A DNA stretch of 39,842 nucleotides, from assembly GCA_005223075.1 (NCBI GenBank), contig NJBO01000017.1:1-39842 (forward strand), in the 5' to 3' direction. The stretch comes from a candidate division TA06 bacterium B3_TA06. GTDB lineage: Bacteria; Hydrothermota; Tepidihabitantia; B3-TA06. The translations under genes were made by a program, and so were the position numbers. Shown here in pieces: positions 4,668 through 30,480 of this stretch (within the stretch, counting starts at the first letter, position 1; the number at the start of each line of letters is the position of its first letter). The notes under the pieces were generated by a model that worked only from the letters and a program-made list of their open reading frames with translations, was not told where the DNA came from and did not search any database.

Positions 4668-5615
4668 GTGAAGAAGGACCTCGTTTCAATCGTTGATCTA
4701 AATGGTGAGGAGATCAGGGAACTATTCAAGATATCTGCCGAGATAAAGGGTTTAGAGCTTGATCTTGCCAAAGGCAAGACCCTGGTGCTCGTGTTCGAGA
4801 AGCCTTCCTTGAGAACACGGGTCACCTTCTCTGTGGCATTCTTCCAGCTGGGCGGGAACGTAATCTACCTTGCACCTGCTGATATAGGCTTAGGCAAACG
4901 CGAGTCTGTCCCTGATGTGGCTCGCAACCTGGCACGCTGGGTTGACGCGATCGCCGCCCGAACCTTTGCGCATAAAACCGTCCAGGATCTGGCGGAGTAT
5001 GCGGATATTCCGGTGATCAATGCGCTCTCAGACGCCGAGCACCCATGCCAGGCGCTTGCAGACTTTCTTACTATCTATGAGCATCTAGGTTCGGGGTCCA
5101 CGCGAGGAAGCGAAGCTTTCTCGTGGGGTGATATCAAACTCGCTTACTTCGGCGACGGCAACAACGTGTGCCACTCGCTGATGCTGACCGTGGCCAGGCT
5201 GGGAGCCCATATGGTGATCGGGGGGCCACAGGGCTATGGTCCAAAGGACGAGTTTATTAAGGCGGCAACCGATGAAGCGGCAAAGACAGGTGCTTCTATA
5301 ACCATAACCAACGACGCGCATGAGGCTGCCGCCGACGCCGACGTTATCTACACCGACGTGTGGGCCTCGATGGGACAGGAGCAAGAAGCCGCCGAGCGCA
5401 GGTCTCTGTTTGCACCATTCCAGGTGAACTCCGAACTCTTAAGCCACGCAAAGCCTGACGTTCTGGTCGAACACTGCCTGCCTGCCCACCGCGGAGAGGA
5501 GATCACAGACGAGGTGCTTGACGGGGAGCACTCGGTGGTCCTTGATGAGGCCGAGAACAGGCTTCACATCCAGAAGGCGATACTTTATAGATTGCTCCTT
5601 TTAACCGGAGATTAA
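4668..5615 (+). CDS. argF: Ornithine carbamoyltransferase
   Basis: Converts ornithine and carbamoyl phosphate to citrulline in arginine synthesis, in the cytoplasm as a trimer. The carbamoyl-phosphate site is KPSLRTRVTF (near residue 45), then the HPCQ motif near 125, a DVWASMGQE segment and the ornithine-binding HCLPAHRGEE near 268. The length, 315 residues, is normal. The start is GTG at 4668 behind AGGAGGT; the longer reading from TTG 4635 has no ribosome site. Residues about 142-155 (SGSTRGSEAFSWGD) replace the short loop that usually precedes the LAYxGDGNN strand. They are encoded by a complete copy of the window's palindromic repeat, so the protein seems to carry a repeat-derived insert. 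A strong terminator follows. Confidence 0.95.
   Translation: MKKDLVSIVDLNGEEIRELFKISAEIKGLELDLAKGKTLVLVFEKPSLRTRVTFSVAFFQLGGNVIYLAPADIGLGKRESVPDVARNLARWVDAIAARTFAHKTVQDLAEYADIPVINALSDAEHPCQALADFLTIYEHLGSGSTRGSEAFSWGDIKLAYFGDGNNVCHSLMLTVARLGAHMVIGGPQGYGPKDEFIKAATDEAAKTGASITITNDAHEAAADADVIYTDVWASMGQEQEAAERRSLFAPFQVNSELLSHAKPDVLVEHCLPAHRGEEITDEVLDGEHSVVLDEAENRLHIQKAILYRLLLLTGD
5093..5131 (+). repeat. Palindromic GGGGTCC repeat inside argF
   Basis: GGGGTCCACGCGAG...CTCGTGGGGTGA with the core GGAAGCGAAGCTTTC. It aligns end to end with the intergenic copies at 7477, 12255, 12300 and 18246, and it is read in frame. Confidence 0.8.
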
Positions 5616-5673: not shown

Positions 5674-5710
5674 CTGCGACCTTTTTCGCGTAGCGAAAAA
5701 GGAGCATAAT
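5674..5710. repeat. CTGCGACC-TTTTTCGC palindrome
   Basis: CCTTTTTCGC-gta-GCGAAAAAGG followed by AGCATAAT. Related copies are at 18070-18110 and 18202-18245, which also start near CTGC and end in GGAGCAT. Confidence 0.7.
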
Positions 5711-5748: not shown

Positions 5749-7476
5749 GTGAGCTTCCTTAGTGAACATAACATCCTCATCTTCCTCTTACAAATAGTCC
5801 TTCTGTTGTTTGCAGCAAGGGCCGCGGGGGAGCTCTTTCGCAAGCTGAAACAGCCTGCTCTGGTGGGTGAGATGCTTGTAGGGATCATCTTCGGCCCGAC
5901 GATTCTTAGCAGGCTTCTGCCCGGGGTCCAAACCTTCTTATTCCCTGCCGATCCTATTCAGCACTCGATGCTTCAGACCGTCTCCTGGCTGGGGGTGCTC
6001 TTTCTTTTGCTCGTAACCGGCTTCGAGGTAGAGATCTCGGCGATCTGGAAACAGCGGCGCTCCTCGTTGACCATAGGATTCGTAGGGGTCTTGCTTCCCA
6101 TGCTTATGGGGATAGGCCTGGCATTCCTGTTGCCGGAACGCTACATGGTAGACCCTGACCGCAAGCTGGTGTTCGTACTGTTTATGGGCACCGCTATGGC
6201 CATCTCCGCCATACCAATCATAGCCAAGGTGCTGCACGATCTGGACATCCTGAAAAGCGACATAGGGCTTACCATAATCTCAGCCTTCACGGTGAACGAC
6301 ATCCTGGGGTGGGTGGCGTTTACCATGGTGCTCGGTCTTGCCACCCAGCAGCGCATCAATTGGTTATCCATGCTGAGGGTCTTCGGGGGCACGGCGGTGT
6401 TTATAGCGTTCAGTCTGACCTGGGGACGTAAGCTGGTGAATCGGGCTGTGAAGTGGATCAACACGAGCTGGCTGCCTAAACCCGGGAGCGTTCTGACCTT
6501 CGTCGTTCTCCTTGGGGGGCTGTGCGGAGCTTTGACCCAGCTTATCGGCATCCATGCCGCCTTCGGGTTCCTGGTTGCCGGGGTGATGGCAGGCGGTGCA
6601 CCTGCCATTTCGGAGCGCAATCGAGAGACGATCTCCCAGATGGTGTATGCGGTGTTCGTCCCGCTTTTCTTCGTAAGCATCGGACTCAGGGTTGACTTTT
6701 TGGCCAACTTTGACTGGCTGCTGGTCAGCACTGTAACCGCGGTAGCCATAGGAGGCAAGCTTGTTGGAGCCTGGCTGGGAGCGAGAATGTCTGGCATCCC
6801 ACAGCGCGACTCGTTCGCCATAGGCATAGCGCACACACCGGGCGGTGCTATGGAGATCCTCATCGGTGTGCTGGCGTTGGAGTTCGGACTCATTAATCTG
6901 GTGGTATTTGAGGCGATTGTGGTCGCGGCAGTAGTCTCATCCATCCTGGTCGGGCCACTGCTTAGTCTCTCCCTTCAGCTGCGCCGCGCCTTCAATGCAC
7001 TTAAGTACCTGCTTTCCGACGCTGTCGTCTTCAACCTTGCCGGCGACACCCCACTCAAGGTTATCGCAGAGCTCTGCAGATCAATCTCTACCCACGATGG
7101 GACGCCCGGTGCGGGCGAAGCATGTGCGGCTGTGAGTGCGCGCGAAGAGATAATGGGAACCGGTATGGAAAAAGGGATCGCCATACCACATGCAAGGATG
7201 CAAGGCCTGTCCCAGCCCATCTTCACCTTAGGACGTTCGACCAAAGGGATAGAGTGGAACACCACGGACGGGTTACCGGTTAAGCTTGTATTCCTCATAC
7301 TCACCCCTGACCCGGATAAGGACGACATGCAGGTGAAGATTTTGGCATCCATTGCCAGGGTGCTGGAGGATGAGAAGGTACGAAGTGGAATGCTGGAGGC
7401 TCGCGACAGGGAGGGAATGCTGGCTATCTTCACCTCCGCGCTCAGGCGCGACCGGATGATGAGAGCGAGAAGATAA
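5749..7476 (+). CDS. Kef-type cation/proton antiporter fused to PTS EIIA-like domain
   Basis: A 575-residue inner-membrane protein. Residues 1 to about 410 form a CPA2 (Kef-type) Na+/H+ or K+/H+ antiporter domain with some twelve hydrophobic segments, including FLLLVTGFEVEI and FGFLVAGVMAGG. Residues about 430-575 are a soluble domain of the PTS EIIA type 2 (fructose/nitrogen, PtsN) fold, with the phospho-acceptor motif GIAIPHARM. This suggests that antiport is tuned by a phosphorylation signal, but no EI or HPr gene is in the window. The GTG start agrees with the leaderless promoter and with the hydrophobic N-terminus (SFLSEHNILIFLLQIVLLLF). The gene stands alone after the argF terminator. 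A double palindromic repeat follows its stop codon. Confidence 0.9.
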   Translation: MSFLSEHNILIFLLQIVLLLFAARAAGELFRKLKQPALVGEMLVGIIFGPTILSRLLPGVQTFLFPADPIQHSMLQTVSWLGVLFLLLVTGFEVEISAIWKQRRSSLTIGFVGVLLPMLMGIGLAFLLPERYMVDPDRKLVFVLFMGTAMAISAIPIIAKVLHDLDILKSDIGLTIISAFTVNDILGWVAFTMVLGLATQQRINWLSMLRVFGGTAVFIAFSLTWGRKLVNRAVKWINTSWLPKPGSVLTFVVLLGGLCGALTQLIGIHAAFGFLVAGVMAGGAPAISERNRETISQMVYAVFVPLFFVSIGLRVDFLANFDWLLVSTVTAVAIGGKLVGAWLGARMSGIPQRDSFAIGIAHTPGGAMEILIGVLALEFGLINLVVFEAIVVAAVVSSILVGPLLSLSLQLRRAFNALKYLLSDAVVFNLAGDTPLKVIAELCRSISTHDGTPGAGEACAAVSAREEIMGTGMEKGIAIPHARMQGLSQPIFTLGRSTKGIEWNTTDGLPVKLVFLILTPDPDKDDMQVKILASIARVLEDEKVRSGMLEARDREGMLAIFTSALRRDRMMRARR

Positions 7477-7549
7477 TTACCCCACCCGAAAGCTTCGCTT
7501 CCGGGCGGGGACCCCATAGAGATGCGAAGTATCTGCGTGGGGTGTAAAA
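7477..7549. repeat. Two palindromic GGGGTCCCC repeats, head to head
   Basis: One unit runs leftwards (7477-7515, core GAAAGCTTCGCTTC) and one rightwards (7507-7549, core GATGCGAAGTATC). They share the central GGGGACCCC at 7507-7515. The array begins directly after the antiporter stop codon and fills most of the gap to the nitroreductase gene. Confidence 0.75.
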
Positions 7550-12254: not shown

Positions 12255-12293
12255 GGGGTCCCCGGCAAGAAACGAAGTTTCTTGTTGGGGTAA
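12255..12293 (+). repeat. Palindromic GGGGTCCCC repeat (first of a tandem pair)
   Basis: GGGGTCCCC, then GCAAGAAACGAAGTTTCTTG and TTGGGGTAA. A second unit starts seven bases later. Confidence 0.85.
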
Positions 12294-12294
12294 C

Positions 12295-13032
12295 TTATCG
12301 GGGTCCCCGCGGAGGAACGAAGTTACTTCGCGGGGTGAAAAGGTGGAACGGGTTGAAGTTGGTCTTGCGGTCGTAGTGATCGACACCCTCGGCGCGCTTG
12401 AGACCGCCCACTATGAGATAAGTAATGGGGGTAAACAGAACCTCCACCCCCACCTTGAAGATGTAGTTGGAGATGATGAGGGATAGGAGTTCAGAACCGC
12501 GAAACGCACCCAGGAAGGCGACCAGGATGAACACCCCGGTATCCACACCCTGGCCAACCAGGGTTGAGCCGATGGTGCGCGACCACAGGAAGCGGCCTTT
12601 TGTCCAGACCTTCATCTTTGCCAGAACGAATGAGTTGGAGAACTCGCCTGCCCAGTAGGCAACGAGGCTTGCGGCGACAATGCGGGGCGTGAATCCTAAG
12701 ACCTCATAATAGGCTGAGGTGGATGGTCCGAAACCGGCCCAGGGCAGGATGCCTATGAGCATCAAAAGTCCGGACATCAGCGCGTTTGCCGCGAATCCCA
12801 CCCAGATGACCCGGCGGGCGCGTGCATAGCCGTAGACCTCGGTCAGAACGTCGCCGAAGATGTAGGCCAGGGGGAAAAGTAGGGTGCCCGCATCGAAGGT
12901 AAAAAACCAGATCTTCACGATACGGGCGGCTGAGGCGATGTTTGAAACCAGAAGCACGGTCACGAACGCCGCCATCACCAGATCGTAGTAGCGAAAGCGG
13001 GTGGGATGATCGAGGGGTTTGCCTTTAGCCAT
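12295..13032 (-). CDS. yhhQ: VUT-family (YhhQ-like) queuosine precursor transporter
   Basis: A 245-residue inner-membrane protein of the vitamin-uptake-transporter family; the best-known member, YhhQ, imports the queuosine precursors preQ0 and preQ1. Family features seen are FTFDAGTLLFPLAYIFGDVLTE, YGYARARRVIWVGF, the ANALMSGLLM segment, and the C-terminal TIGSTLVGQGVDTGVF and YKVGVEVLFTP-like segments. I place the start at ATG 13032 (MAKGKPLDHP), five bases after a -10 box, rather than the upstream codon 13065, which lies inside the -35. The last 14 residues (FTPRSNFVPPRGPR) are encoded by a palindromic repeat. The promoter and first codons are duplicated at 14496-14549. Confidence 0.9.
   Translation of the reverse strand: MAKGKPLDHPTRFRYYDLVMAAFVTVLLVSNIASAARIVKIWFFTFDAGTLLFPLAYIFGDVLTEVYGYARARRVIWVGFAANALMSGLLMLIGILPWAGFGPSTSAYYEVLGFTPRIVAASLVAYWAGEFSNSFVLAKMKVWTKGRFLWSRTIGSTLVGQGVDTGVFILVAFLGAFRGSELLSLIISNYIFKVGVEVLFTPITYLIVGGLKRAEGVDHYDRKTNFNPFHLFTPRSNFVPPRGPR
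12300..12341 (+). repeat. Palindromic GGGGTCCCC repeat forming the end of the VUT gene
   Basis: GGGGTCCCC, core GGAGGAACGAAGTTACTTC, then GCGGGGTGAAAA. Read on the minus strand it encodes the last residues of the transporter (FTPRSNFVPPRGP), whose stop codon lies just beyond the repeat at 12295-12297. Confidence 0.85.
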
Positions 13033-18069: not shown

Positions 18070-18130
18070 CTGCTCCTTTTCTCGCTTGCGAGAAAAGGAG
18101 CATTTATTCTCGGGGTCCCCGCGAAGTTAC
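18070..18130. repeat. Composite: TTTTCTCGC palindrome followed by partial GGGGTCCCC repeat
   Basis: CTGCTCCTTTTCTCGC-tt-GCGAGAAAAGGAGCAT, then TTATTCTC and GGGGTCCCCGCGAAGTTAC. The second part lacks the right arm. A further palindrome, GCCCCC...GGGGGC, runs from about 18141 to 18178. This and the next composite fill the 275-bp gap between the DUF5362-like gene and tRNA-Ser(UGA). Confidence 0.7.
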
Positions 18131-18201: not shown

Positions 18202-18286
18202 CTGCGATCTTTTTTCGCTCTGCGAAAAAAGGAGCATATATTCTCGGGGTCCCCAACCGAAAGCGACGCTTTCGGTTGGGGTAAAA
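18202..18286. repeat. Composite: TTTTTTCGC palindrome followed by full GGGGTCCCC repeat
   Basis: CTGCGATC, CTTTTTTCGC-tct-GCGAAAAAAG, GAGCATATATTCTC, then GGGGTCCCCAACCGAAAGCG and CGCTTTCGGTTGGGGTAAAA (overlapping the preceding segment). The repeat ends at the discriminator base of tRNA-Ser, so as a hairpin it lies directly 3' of the tRNA. Confidence 0.8.
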
Positions 18287-18373
18287 CGGAGGGTGAGGGA
18301 CTCGAACCCCCAAGCCCCACTCAAGGGGCGGCAGATTTCAAGTCTGCTGCGTTACCAGTTACGCTAACCCTCC
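18287..18373 (-). tRNA. tRNA-Ser (anticodon UGA)
   Basis: A class II tRNA of 87 nt. The acceptor stem is GGAGGGT/ACCCTCC, the anticodon stem GCAGA/TCTGC with loop CTTGAAA, the variable arm is CGCCCCTTGAGTGGGGC, and the T-arm GGGGGTTCGAGTCCCTC with one mismatch. The discriminator is G and CCA is not encoded. Confidence 0.97.
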
Positions 18374-18379
18374 AGAACG

Positions 18380-18493
18380 CTACGCGTTCTTACGGGTTAC
18401 CGTCGGCTTGAGGCCGTACGCTAACCTTTCATATTACTACGCGTTCTTACGGGTTACCGTCGGCTTGAGGCCGTATGCTAACCCTTCATATTA
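18380..18493. repeat. 57-bp tandem duplication upstream of tRNA-Ser(UGA)
   Basis: Two nearly identical 57-bp units, beginning at 18380 and 18437, contain TACGGGTTACCGTCGGCTTG and AGGCCGTACGCTAACC. The end of each unit (TACGCTAACCNTT) resembles the 5' end of the tRNA itself (TACGCTAACCCTCC on the same strand), so the array may have arisen from tRNA sequence. It would be part of the 5' leader of the pre-tRNA. Nothing else is seen up to rnhB apart from promoters. Confidence 0.8.
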
Positions 18494-21374: not shown

Positions 21375-21437
21375 AGGGGCACGGCATACCCTATGAGCGT
21401 ATGAACTGCTCAAGGGGCACGCTGTGCCGTGCCCCTA
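21375..21437. repeat. 38-bp element nested in a palindrome
   Basis: AGGGGCACGGCAT on the left and GCCGTGCCCCT on the right form an inverted repeat. Between them, at 21388-21425, lies a copy of the 38-bp element found inside the IS30 transposase (same ends ACCCTATGAGCG and GGGGCACGCTGT). The element therefore sits at the centre of a pre-existing palindrome or is part of a larger one. Confidence 0.75.
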
Positions 21438-23363: not shown

Positions 23364-23515
23364 TCAACCGGTCCATCTTTTGACCAACTCTTTAACCCCC
23401 AGACGTCTGCTTCGCTTCATGTCCGTCCGGGGACCCCGGAAATTGTCCTTGATTTGTCCACCTTTTGTCCATCTTTTGACCAACTTTTGACCAGCTTTTG
23501 GGGAGCTTTTTTGTG
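23364..23515. repeat. 11-bp tandem array interrupted by a GGGGTCCCC repeat
   Basis: From 23452 to 23513 an 11-bp unit recurs (CTTTTGTCCAT, CTTTTGACCAA, CTTTTGACCAG, CTTTTGGGGAG). The same words occur at 23371-23390. Between the two parts, at 23391-23437, lies a palindromic repeat unit (core CTGCTTCGCTTCATG, end GGGGACCCC). The rest of the 490-bp gap from 23111 holds a degraded repeat with TCGCGAAGTAGCTCC (about 23180-23215) and no gene. Confidence 0.7.
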
Positions 23516-24963: not shown

Positions 24964-25449
24964 GTGCTCAATCAAAGCTACGAGCCTTTAGGTATATGCA
25001 GGGCTCGTCGCGCAGTGGTACTTTGTTTCCTGGGTAAGGCAGAGATTGTGGTCTCTGCTGATGGTCTTCGTGTGCATAGTGTGAACCGCTCCTTTCCAGT
25101 CCCTTCCGTTTTGCGTTTGAGCAGACTTGTGAAGATCAAAAGACGCGAAGTCCCTTTGACCAAGCCCAATTTGATGAGACGAGACAACTATACCTGCCAG
25201 TATTGTGGAGCTCGCCACGTCCACATGACCCTGGATCACGTTATTCCGCGCACGCATGGAGGTAAGGACTCCTGGGATAACCTTGTGTGTGCATGCGATA
25301 AGTGTAACTCTCGCAAGGGCGACAGAACTCCAAGGGAGGCAGGGATGAAGCTAAAGCGTAAGCCAAAGGAACCCCACTACTTTTCCTTTGTGCTGGTTTC
25401 TTTAGGAACGCCTCCAGCCGAATGGCGGCCTTACCTCTTTATATCCTGA
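24964..25449 (+). CDS. HNH endonuclease
   Basis: A 161-residue HNH-family nuclease. The HNH core is RRDNYTCQYCGARHVHMTLD with HVIPRTHGGKDSWDNLVCAC and DKCNSRKGDRTP; the two CxxC pairs bind zinc and the His of LDHVIP is catalytic. The N-terminal half (LNQSYEPLGICRARRAVVLC) matches the common bacterial family that opens with a short RVLVLN strand. That strand is encoded upstream of GTG 24964 (LDRRVLVLNQ), in an open frame beginning after a TAG at about 24930, but no standard start codon is available there. The true start may be a non-standard codon near 24946, where AGGGGGG precedes. The gene closely follows the TPR gene. Confidence 0.85.
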   Translation: MLNQSYEPLGICRARRAVVLCFLGKAEIVVSADGLRVHSVNRSFPVPSVLRLSRLVKIKRREVPLTKPNLMRRDNYTCQYCGARHVHMTLDHVIPRTHGGKDSWDNLVCACDKCNSRKGDRTPREAGMKLKRKPKEPHYFSFVLVSLGTPPAEWRPYLFIS

Positions 25450-26789
25450 TTCTCGGGGCACAAGCGTTAGATTTACCCTCTGAGCATACAGGCGATGTGG
25501 CGTGGATTGAGGTGATTTGTGGCGAGGATAGGGTAATCCAATATCGCGATTCATTCGTCTGGGACAGCCTGGCACGATTTATGCTTTTCGATGCAGTGGA
25601 TTCAGGATACGCGTTCGCTTCTTTATCAGTCGCAAGATCCGAACTTAAGGGTGATACACTTACCCTGTATACCAAGATAGATAAGGGTCCTCTTGTCAGG
25701 GTCGCATCTCTCGCGTTTTCAGGCGATCGTAGGACAAACTCTTCTTTGCTTGCCCATCTTTTAAGGTTCCAGCCTTTTGTGTACTCGACCGCAAAGGTGG
25801 CGGAACTCGCGGATGTCCTTGAGGGTCTTGACTGCACCGTTCTCGACTGGGAGATTCTAATTGCCCCACTCGAAAACAGGGTTTTCGAGCGGGGACCCCC
25901 AAAGGATGATACAATCGGATCAGGGGCCAGGCTTCACTTCCTGATAGACGAGGCCCGGTCGCCGAACCGTATCACAGCCCTCCTTGGTTACGGAGATGAG
26001 GAAGGGTTCGTGGGAATGGCTGATTTTTTGCTTTCGAATCTCTTCGGCGGCAGGCGGGAGTTTTTCTTCTCATGGCAAAGGCTTGCCCCGAACAACGTAA
26101 ACTTCGCCGCCTCCGCACGAGACCCTTACCCATTTAGATTGCCCTTCGGTATCGAGGTAGCCGGAGCGTTTCGCAGCTTTGATGAGAGCACCTATCATCT
26201 TGAGGCCTCAGGAGGGATCTTCATCACCCCTGCTTCCTTTCGGGTAGGCCTTGGTTACGTCTACGAGCAGGATCGCTCAGGTTTGACGCGTGTGAGCAAG
26301 AACCTTGCCTCGACCCGTATGAGCGTGGGGCCTTTGCTGGTAGGCGTTCGAGCAGGCGAACGCAGGGCCGAGGAGCGTTCGGCCTATCTTAAGGCATCTC
26401 TTAAGGCTGGGCTCCCTATTCCCCTTTTATGGGGATTTTCTTTCTGGCTTGAACCAAACGCCGCGTTTGTTACCTCCGCAGACCCTCTCCTTGAAACCGA
26501 GCTTATTCCCGTTGGCGGTGCGCGAACGCTTCGTGGTTACACAGAGGAGGAGTTCCGAAGTAAGCTTGCGTTCTGGTTACGGCAGGAGCTGCGCTGGGGC
26601 AGCGAGAGTCTCTCCTTATATCCTCTGTTCGATGTGGCCTTGATCGAGGTCACAGGATTTGCGGCAGGCTATGGCGCAGGGATAACGGTCGCCACCCCCA
26701 TAGGTCGGCTTGAGCTGGATGCCGCCCTGCCCTGGGAAGGTGCGTGGTATGATGCCAAGCTTCATCTTTCAGTGGGGGCGGAATTCTAA
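25422..26789 (+). CDS. BamA/Omp85-family outer-membrane protein
   Basis: A 455-residue outer-membrane protein. After a signal sequence (MAALPLYILILGAQALDLPS) one or two POTRA-like segments are suggested: YAFASLSVARSELKGDTLTL and GPLVRVASLAFSGDRRTNSS. The C-terminal part is a beta-barrel, including the Omp85 motif PVGGARTLRGYTEEEFRS near residue 365 and a final aromatic residue (SVGAEF). It is smaller than BamA and probably a specialised surface antigen or translocator. Residues about 147-160 (APLENRVFERGPP) are encoded by a palindromic repeat between the POTRA part and the barrel. The start overlaps the HNH gene by 28 bp. Confidence 0.82.
   Translation: MAALPLYILILGAQALDLPSEHTGDVAWIEVICGEDRVIQYRDSFVWDSLARFMLFDAVDSGYAFASLSVARSELKGDTLTLYTKIDKGPLVRVASLAFSGDRRTNSSLLAHLLRFQPFVYSTAKVAELADVLEGLDCTVLDWEILIAPLENRVFERGPPKDDTIGSGARLHFLIDEARSPNRITALLGYGDEEGFVGMADFLLSNLFGGRREFFFSWQRLAPNNVNFAASARDPYPFRLPFGIEVAGAFRSFDESTYHLEASGGIFITPASFRVGLGYVYEQDRSGLTRVSKNLASTRMSVGPLLVGVRAGERRAEERSAYLKASLKAGLPIPLLWGFSFWLEPNAAFVTSADPLLETELIPVGGARTLRGYTEEEFRSKLAFWLRQELRWGSESLSLYPLFDVALIEVTGFAAGYGAGITVATPIGRLELDAALPWEGAWYDAKLHLSVGAEF
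25862..25899 (-). repeat. Palindromic GGGGTCCCC repeat inside BamA-like gene
   Basis: Read on the minus strand: GGGGTCCCC, GCTCGAAAACCCTGTTTTCG, AGTGGGGCAA. The core differs from the CGAAG type, but both ends match. It is translated in frame. Confidence 0.75.
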
Positions 26790-29073: not shown

Positions 29074-30480
29074 ATGTCACTTATTCGCAAGGCAGAGGAT
29101 AGCTTAAAGCGTGAGTGCGGGTTCAAGAGGGGAGCAAGCGTGCTTGTCGCGTGTTCTGGCGGGGCGGATTCCACCGCACTCCTGCACTTCCTTCACTCAC
29201 GTCGAAGAAGGCTCGGGATTGCTGATCTAGGCGTGTATCATCTCAATCACGGGCTTCGGGGAGCGGAGGCGGATGCGGACGAGGAATTCGTGGCGAATCT
29301 TGCCAAATCCCTCGATATCCCCTTCCATCCCGATCGTGCCGACGTTGCGGCGTACGCGGCAGAGCACGGGATATCCCATGAGATGGCGGGACGCAAGCTG
29401 CGCTATGCAGGATTGAACAGGCTGTTGGAATCGGAAGGTTGTGTTCCAAAGAAGGGTGGGTGTTACGGGTGTTACGGGTACGGGGCTTTGGGACATACAG
29501 CCAGTGACAATGCGGAGTGGATCCTTATCTCCCTCGTTCGTGGCAGGGCAGAGCCCTTTTTATGGGGCATCCCTGCAAAGCGTGGTCCGTTCATCCGTCC
29601 ACTTATCCGGTGTGCGCGTGCAGAAATTCTTGACTATTTGAAAACCCATCACCTATCCTTCCGCGAGGATTCGAGCAATGCCTCACTTTCATTTGACCGC
29701 AACCGTATCCGACACCGGATCATGCCCTTACTTAAGGAACTCAACCCCTCCCTTGAGGAGACCCTTTCCCGCACCCTCGAGGTCGGTGACCTCCTAAACT
29801 CCTCGCTTGATTCACAGGCAGCCGAGCTCCTAGAGCGTCTCGTTACGAGTAATGGTAGGACCAGCGAGCTTGACACTTCCGAGCTTTCAGGCTATAATCT
29901 TGTTACGCAACTTCGTGTTCTGAGGTTATTTGTGCCTTGGCTTGGGGCAAATGATCTGTTGGGCCTACTGCCCCTTGAGGTTGCCAAAGGGACGCGTGAG
30001 ATGGCGCGCGGCAAAGGCAAGAAGCTTTGCGCGTCCTATGATCGGTTGGTGCTTGAGGATTGCAAGGATCAACCCTTATGGGAGCCGTGCGTGTTGAGTG
30101 AGGCTAAGGATGTGTTAGTGCCGGGGCTTGGATGGCGACTGCGGGTCTATGAAGGTAAACGTGATGAATTCGCACCGCGCGATGATGTGGTATTCTTTGA
30201 CGCGAGTTTTATCAAGCCTCCATTCGTTGTTCGACCCTGGCGTGAAGGAGACAGGATAGTTCCGTTTGGCAGACGCGGTGAAGTCAAGCTCAAGCGGGTG
30301 TTTAGTGATAGGAAGGTACCACGCCGGATGCGTCGGTACTGGCCTTTGGTATGCAAGGATGATGAAGTGGTGTGGGCCGCCGGGCTTATTCGCTCTGCCG
30401 GGGCCCCTGTAACCAGTTCAACACGTAAGTTGACGATTTTGACTCTTTTGAGAGGTGAAGATGGCAAACAAACCGCCTAA
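29074..30480 (+). CDS. tilS: tRNA(Ile) lysidine synthetase
   Basis: A 468-residue ATP-pyrophosphatase that converts cytidine-34 of the CAU-anticodon tRNA-Ile to lysidine, so it reads AUA. The PP-loop SGGADSTALLHFL is near residue 28, with GVYHLNHGLRGAEADADEEF near 56 and ALGHTASDNAEWILISLVRG near 143. The C-terminal lysidine domain is complete (RPWREGDRIVPFGRRG, FSDRKVPRRMRRYWPLV). Between the tRNA-binding helix and the ALGHT motif lies GCVPKKGGCYGCYGYG, encoded partly by the GTGTTACGG minisatellite, an insert absent from typical TilS. The start ATG follows uppP directly; the end overlaps ftsH by 20 bp. Confidence 0.95.
   Translation: MSLIRKAEDSLKRECGFKRGASVLVACSGGADSTALLHFLHSRRRRLGIADLGVYHLNHGLRGAEADADEEFVANLAKSLDIPFHPDRADVAAYAAEHGISHEMAGRKLRYAGLNRLLESEGCVPKKGGCYGCYGYGALGHTASDNAEWILISLVRGRAEPFLWGIPAKRGPFIRPLIRCARAEILDYLKTHHLSFREDSSNASLSFDRNRIRHRIMPLLKELNPSLEETLSRTLEVGDLLNSSLDSQAAELLERLVTSNGRTSELDTSELSGYNLVTQLRVLRLFVPWLGANDLLGLLPLEVAKGTREMARGKGKKLCASYDRLVLEDCKDQPLWEPCVLSEAKDVLVPGLGWRLRVYEGKRDEFAPRDDVVFFDASFIKPPFVVRPWREGDRIVPFGRRGEVKLKRVFSDRKVPRRMRRYWPLVCKDDEVVWAAGLIRSAGAPVTSSTRKLTILTLLRGEDGKQTA
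29456..29483 (+). repeat. In-frame minisatellite in tilS
   Basis: GTGTTACGG at 29460-29468 and 29469-29477, then a partial GTACGG. It encodes Gly-Cys-Tyr repeats, a different frame of the same 9-mer as in the PHP phosphatase. Confidence 0.8.

Follow-up and report, generated by a model that had tools for sequence, protein, structure and literature searches.

The window analyzed here is a contig of 39,842 nt from the candidate division TA06 bacterium B3_TA06, part of a genome (G000) of 2.41 Mb in 42 contigs. It includes the gene argF, whose product carries both carbamoyltransferase domains and retains intact catalytic motifs (HPCQ, DVWASMGQE, and HCLPAHRGEE). At the junction of the two domains, where Pfam places the end of the carbamoyl-phosphate domain at residue 149 and the start of the ornithine domain at residue 166 of a 326-residue open frame, the protein has the insert GSGSTRGSEAFSWGD in place of a KTEG-type loop, a net gain of about ten residues. 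The DNA at this site is a 37-nt palindromic repeat, GGGGTCCACGCGAGGAAGCGAAGCTTTCTCGTGGGGT, that can fold into a hairpin with 14 stem positions, a GAA loop, and a single A/G mismatch. The features of the window that bear on this repeat are collected in Table 1.

Table 1 Copies of the palindromic repeat in the window and the genes that host them.
Feature	Position	Strand	Evidence
argF, ornithine carbamoyltransferase, GTG start, 315 aa	4668..5615	+	Pfam OTCace_N 149 bits, OTCace 197 bits
Palindromic repeat, 37 nt, in frame in argF	5093..5129	+	Covariance model 51.7 bits, E 4e-11 per genome; copy in training set
Hairpin 5' arm, CCACGCGAGGAAGC	5098..5111	+	13 of 14 positions pair with the 3' arm
Hairpin loop, GAA	5112..5114	+	Commonest loop
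Hairpin 3' arm, GCTTTCTCGTGGGG	5115..5128	+	Pairs with the 5' arm
Intergenic copy just past the stop of ORF 5749-7476	7479..7515	-	56.9 bits
Degraded copy, overlapping the 7479..7515 copy in the opposite direction	7507..7543	+	31.6 bits
Intergenic copy, first of a tandem pair, 45-nt spacing	12255..12291	+	54.5 bits
Intergenic copy, second of the tandem pair	12300..12336	+	51.9 bits
Intergenic copy beside tRNA gene 18287-18373 (Rfam tRNA)	18246..18282	+	51.7 bits
Possible decayed copy	23395..23437	-	20.1 bits, E 0.017
Omp85-like protein gene with an in-frame, reverse-orientation copy	25422..26789	+	Pfam Omp85, ShlB
Palindromic repeat inside the Omp85-like gene, reverse orientation	25863..25899	-	34.6 bits

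An earlier note on this DNA had described an in-frame palindrome at 5093-5131 that supplies residues of about 142-155 of ArgF. The reading frame and the presence of extra residues relative to homologues are borne out, but the element ends at 5129, the additional GA being flanking bases that are common beside copies, and the net gain is about 10 residues rather than 14. The same note took the segment to be a copy of a palindrome that is intergenic elsewhere in the window. This is true of its ends and core, which are common to the copies; the stem is specific to the argF copy, so the ends and core are the only consensus that the copies have in common.

The repeat is abundant in the genome. Copies begin with GGGGTCCCC, continue through a variable stem that usually surrounds a CGAAG core, and end with GGGGT. 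A covariance model, with the best 150 candidates scored, detects at least 153 copies in G000; the model was built from 40 training sequences, all of them copies from this genome and the argF copy among them, and its E-values are rough. An independent pattern, GGGGTCCNC..NGGGGT, has 138 matches in the genome compared with 4 for a reversed-pattern control. With so many copies, the doubt raised in the earlier note, that the repeat might have no other match in the genome, falls away.

The stems vary widely in sequence: 108 distinct 5' arms are found among 120 full-length copies. Standard pairs fill 93.8% of the paired cells, and both sides have changed in 133 cells compared with 41 in shuffles. 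The covariation score is 0.608, compared with 0.198 when shuffled, and it falls to 0.08-0.14 when the partner column is shifted by one to three positions. The most frequent loop is GAA, found in 58 of 120 copies. Most copies are flanked by TC before and by GA or AA after the element (profile TTTC ... GAAA), and neighboring copies often lie 45 nt apart in the same direction, which defines a repeating unit of about 45 nt; in G005, four copies stand in a row at this period. All six reading frames are open in 52% of the copies, compared with 4% of intergenic 37-mers. We take the segment in argF to be a single copy of a short palindromic repeat that is itself non-coding and is found in one bacterial family of the WOR-3 group.

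As had been proposed in the earlier note, we aligned ArgF with its homologues and mapped the insert onto a structure. Among 44 aligned ArgF proteins, the insert residues are present only in the window's protein and in none of the 43 others; they are also missing from other class members and from the five best-matching solved OTC sequences. The other refuting case named in the note, unrelated bacteria with these residues from unrelated codons, is not seen among these proteins. The insert is likewise missing from outgroup species within the genus and the family, and the ArgF proteins of G002, G005, and G006 have HLGKTEG-type loops. Compared with these insert-free loops, G000 and G001, which read HLGSGS(T/P)RGSEAFSWGD, gain ten residues, and G003 and G004, which read HLGS(S/P)SEREAFDWGK, gain eight. 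The simplest reading of these loop sequences would be a single insertion in the common ancestor of the four genus species, after the split from G002.

Outside the insert, dN/dS of argF relative to genus members is 0.07-0.22, indicating that the gene is under constraint by purifying selection. The predicted ArgF structure has a mean pLDDT of 93.8, and its best match in the PDB is the OTC of P. furiosus (TM 0.93). In this model, the insert forms a low-confidence loop at the domain junction, with pLDDT below 50 at residues 145-147. The ten extra residues are predicted to leave the ArgF fold and its catalytic motifs intact, and the insert is presumably translated as part of an active enzyme.

Other proteins also carry copies of the repeat in frame. 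We classified 141 copies in about half of G000, read as stretches with genes called by a simple codon-usage script; six of these (about 4%) are intragenic, all in frame, against a coding density of 83.6% in that half of the genome. The hosts are argF, hypF, a ThiI-like gene, the Omp85-like gene, an ABC ATPase gene, and a gene for a protein without a Pfam match. The hypF copy falls at an interdomain linker, which separates the Sua5/YrdC domain (to residue 389) from HypF_C (from residue 427), and the copy in the ABC ATPase lies near the C-terminus of the protein. A seventh candidate, at C1:175685, went uncounted, its frame being weak (72 codons), and several long open frames that overlap copies were discarded after scoring as non-coding.

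These intragenic sites differ among relatives. The HypF site holds the repeat in sense orientation in G000 and G003 and in reverse orientation in G004; G005 carries a copy with a different stem, G001 a rearranged remnant, and G002 a nine-base array. In class members from outside the family, the HypF loop is short. The ThiI-like site has a palindrome in G000 and G001, no insert in G003 and G004, and in G002 an in-frame array of the nine-base repeat GTGTTACGG. Tandem copies of this nine-base repeat also occur in the window at 1263-1325 and 29451-29486, and the G002 HypF array is related to it. At the Omp85-like site, the loop is inverted in G003 (CCCTG/CAGGG) and shorter in G002. The G001 ortholog of this gene (G001:C7:122399-123764; L305/L313) is read as two pieces in different frames that meet at a length-altered palindrome.

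Comparison of orthologous flanks in G000, G001, and G003 reveals copies that are identical, altered in their stems, tandem in one species and single in another, or missing. The locus C2:140665 is filled in G000; in G003 one GGGGT stands where the element would be, and in G001 a larger stretch is lacking; this fits either a deletion across GGGGT repeats or an insertion that duplicated GGGGT. A five-base GGGGT repeat on either side fits this one locus and not the others, and no insertion event with a clear target duplication was caught among the orthologous loci. At C1:165066, G003 and G000 both carry the element, so G001 most likely lost it; the polarity here is loss, not gain. Some copies outlast their flanks: at C4:25405, the same 43 nt are found in three species, with flank identity to G003 of about 80%, and the copy at C14:12992 is more conserved than its flanks, a sign that selection or conversion may be at work and not neutrality alone.

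The changes in stems and loops have a characteristic form. Loops are inverted between species at two loci, C2:103940 and the Omp85-like site at 25863 in the window. Between the argF copies of G001 and G003, 9 of 37 bases differ; in three pairs both partners have changed and one pair no longer forms, and the probability of three compensated pairs under random substitution, with the same number of substitutions per arm, is 0.008. Other differing stems give P values from below 0.001 to 0.03 under random substitution, which should be taken as suggestive because the pairs were chosen for being different. Two-sided stem changes alone do not separate template switching from copy replacement or from selection on structure.

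We think it probable that the repeat is a neutral or selfish REP-like hairpin that is tolerated in frame within protein loops and whose stem is kept by hairpin-driven replication errors. The element would be neutral or mildly harmful selfish DNA, surviving inside genes only where the reading frame is restored and the loop can tolerate an insert, and the argF copy would have no function in ArgF. During replication, a single-stranded hairpin could allow one arm to template the other, which would homogenize the arms and invert the loop; by an alternative route, an arm pair may be replaced by that of another copy. The earlier proposal that an essential-type enzyme tolerates a mobile repeat survives as regards tolerance, given the intact frame and the low dN/dS; mobility here means differences in presence and absence between species, not active transposition. 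A more far-reaching version holds that the replication hairpin keeps rewriting codons in a working enzyme, the argF insert having exchanged several of its paired bases within one genus and still being able to fold and in frame, and that repeats of several unrelated families land time and again in the loops of ArgF, HypF, and the ThiI-like protein; we put this forward tentatively, as it may well go too far.

If these three loops were instead hit repeatedly by independent insertions, then the argF copies of G000/G001 and of G003/G004 would represent two events. This is what the HypF site would suggest, with its sense, reverse, rearranged, and different-stem copies across five species, as would the ThiI-like loop, with a palindrome in two species and a nine-base array in a third. 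At argF, however, the 3' junction is identical in four species, a 6-nt indel sets the 5' junctions apart, and the copies share 28 of 37 bases including the loop, so that one event is simpler. Separate insertions strike us as doubtful.

The strong covariation of the stems and the conservation of some copies beyond that of their flanks could also be expected if the repeat were a functional RNA or DNA element, such as a terminator, an mRNA stabilizer, or a protein binding site, with its structure under selection and the intragenic copies as by-products. There is a slight excess of copies between convergent genes (31 of 134 copies compared with 97 of 612 gaps of at least 60 nt). Yet the orientation of copies relative to co-directional genes is unbiased (42 versus 35), and presence or absence often differs between close species. 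An Rfam scan yielded no match to the repeat, and we rejected a known RNA family on this basis; a terminator role was likewise rejected, as just one of the copies in the part of the window that was scanned was flagged as terminator-like. Taken together, a functional element is rather improbable.

We give similarly little weight to the idea that the repeat is a REP proper, moved by the genome's own RAYT (REP-associated tyrosine transposase) enzymes. A search with PF01797 found four Y1_Tnp genes in G000; the three tested all pass the NCBIfam REP_Tyr_transpos cut-off, and the gene at C2:240523 lies between copies of the repeat, at distances of about 0.3 and 0.2 kb. But the foot of the repeat carries neither a GTAG nor a CGTC tag, and it is CGTC-type-like sequences that flank the C2:240523 gene on both sides. 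Only one Y1_Tnp match occurs in G003 and none in G004, which has at least 108 copies of the repeat; the G004 bin is 93% complete, making this absence weak evidence. Finally, co-option of the insert in ArgF for assembly or regulation is very unlikely: the insert is kept in four species, with zero synonymous changes and one non-synonymous change between G000 and G001, but its dN of 0.46 compared with 0.085 outside the insert (G000/G003) reflects strong divergence between species pairs, and the structure model assigns it low confidence.

The selfish hairpin that we favor has parallels in known repeat systems. Rickettsia palindromic elements (RPEs) are in-frame palindromes in unrelated genes that are left unbroken (PMC10969869, PMC3733652); they are about 150 bp long, and nearly half of them lie within ORFs in R. 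conorii (review figure). The likeness to RPEs pointed out earlier holds, in that the six host genes named above encode unrelated proteins with in-frame copies. Set against RPEs by their descriptions, this likeness is one of behavior and not of size, as the repeat described here is 37 nt long (45-nt unit), has about 4% of its copies in ORFs and hypervariable stems, and belongs to a different phylum. GTAG and CGTC REPs also have in-frame intragenic copies, and in two Xanthomonas species recB carries different REPs at roughly one and the same position (PMC3733652). Our repeat resembles these REPs in being a hairpin in the 20-40 nt range with a high copy number, short loops, and complementary stem variants, and in being mostly extragenic with a minority of copies inside genes. 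It differs in lacking their tag at either foot and ending in GGGGT, and in that its tandem pairs run head to tail with a 45-nt spacing, where REPs form head-to-head dimers. Its link to RAYTs also seems inconsistent, with copies near both sides of one of the four Y1_Tnp genes in G000 and no such gene found in G004.

Intragenic RU/ERIC elements of enterobacteria and other MITEs (PMC2759123, PMC10969869) are small mobile repeats that supply codons; the RU-1 to RU-3 elements measure 103-168 nt compared with 37 nt here. Template-switch mutation at inverted repeats (PMC8794818, PMC8604942) homogenizes arms, changes bases in pairs, and inverts spacers, and does so in coding DNA too; all of these effects have likenesses in our copies, but what is described there is a mutational mechanism in RNA genes and yeast genes and not a repeat family. 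A literature search with GGGGTCCCC returned only unrelated papers among the matches listed, in agreement with the earlier remark that no report of this repeat was known, and the family is apparently undescribed so far. The most fitting description is a new REP-like family, some copies of which lie in frame within genes; the phenomenon itself is already known. With these copies, protein insertion driven by repeats, familiar above all from Rickettsia and from bacteria rich in REPs, is extended to an uncultured phylum. The loci also form a natural series (no insert, stem A, stem B, and in HypF reversed or rearranged copies) along which one can trace what becomes of selfish DNA within important enzymes. 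Where a stem changes inside a coding copy, template switching at the hairpin can be put to a direct test on the protein sequence.

Among relatives, whose genomes are bins, the repeat is largely confined to one family. Six genomes are rich in copies (G000, G001, G003, G004, G005, and G006, with 66 to at least 111 copies each under strict filters), and two other family members have fewer (55 in G007 and 15 in G002). All 53 other relatives tested, which lie outside the family, have zero copies. The class is WOR-3: G012 corresponds to CP070705.1, a candidate division WOR-3 bacterium, as their match coordinates are identical. In a phylum-wide sample of 120 genomes, two further genomes match, G093 and, more weakly, G130. 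G093 belongs to another family of the same phylum and has five strong matches, of which the three listed are all on G093:C19; these reflect either contamination or transfer. A virus origin was rejected, as the ten scattered single pattern matches in 2.9 million viral contigs were taken as chance.

The window holds several other repeats. A second hairpin family (GCGATC-TTTT ... AAAAGGAGCA) occurs at 5676-5706 and 18071-18102; half the genome yields 192 matches to a loose pattern allowing two mismatches, a number that clearly includes chance hits, and a match lies within 60 nt of 43 of 146 GGGGTCC palindromes. At 18360-18473, two direct repeats of 57 nt, 89% alike, lie beside a tRNA gene. The contig ends, 1-440 and 39403-39842, are perfect 440-nt inverted repeats, probably because the assembly ended in a repeated element. 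Part of this end repeat, CAAGGGGCACGCTGT, has a further occurrence at 21386-21425, and similar sequence is found near RAYT genes. On both sides of the RAYT gene at C2:240523, ATTGCTTCGCTCC..GTCGCTCGCAATGACG (L182, about 1105-1140 and 1965-2003) resembles a CGTC-type REP and is followed by a GGGGTCC palindrome.
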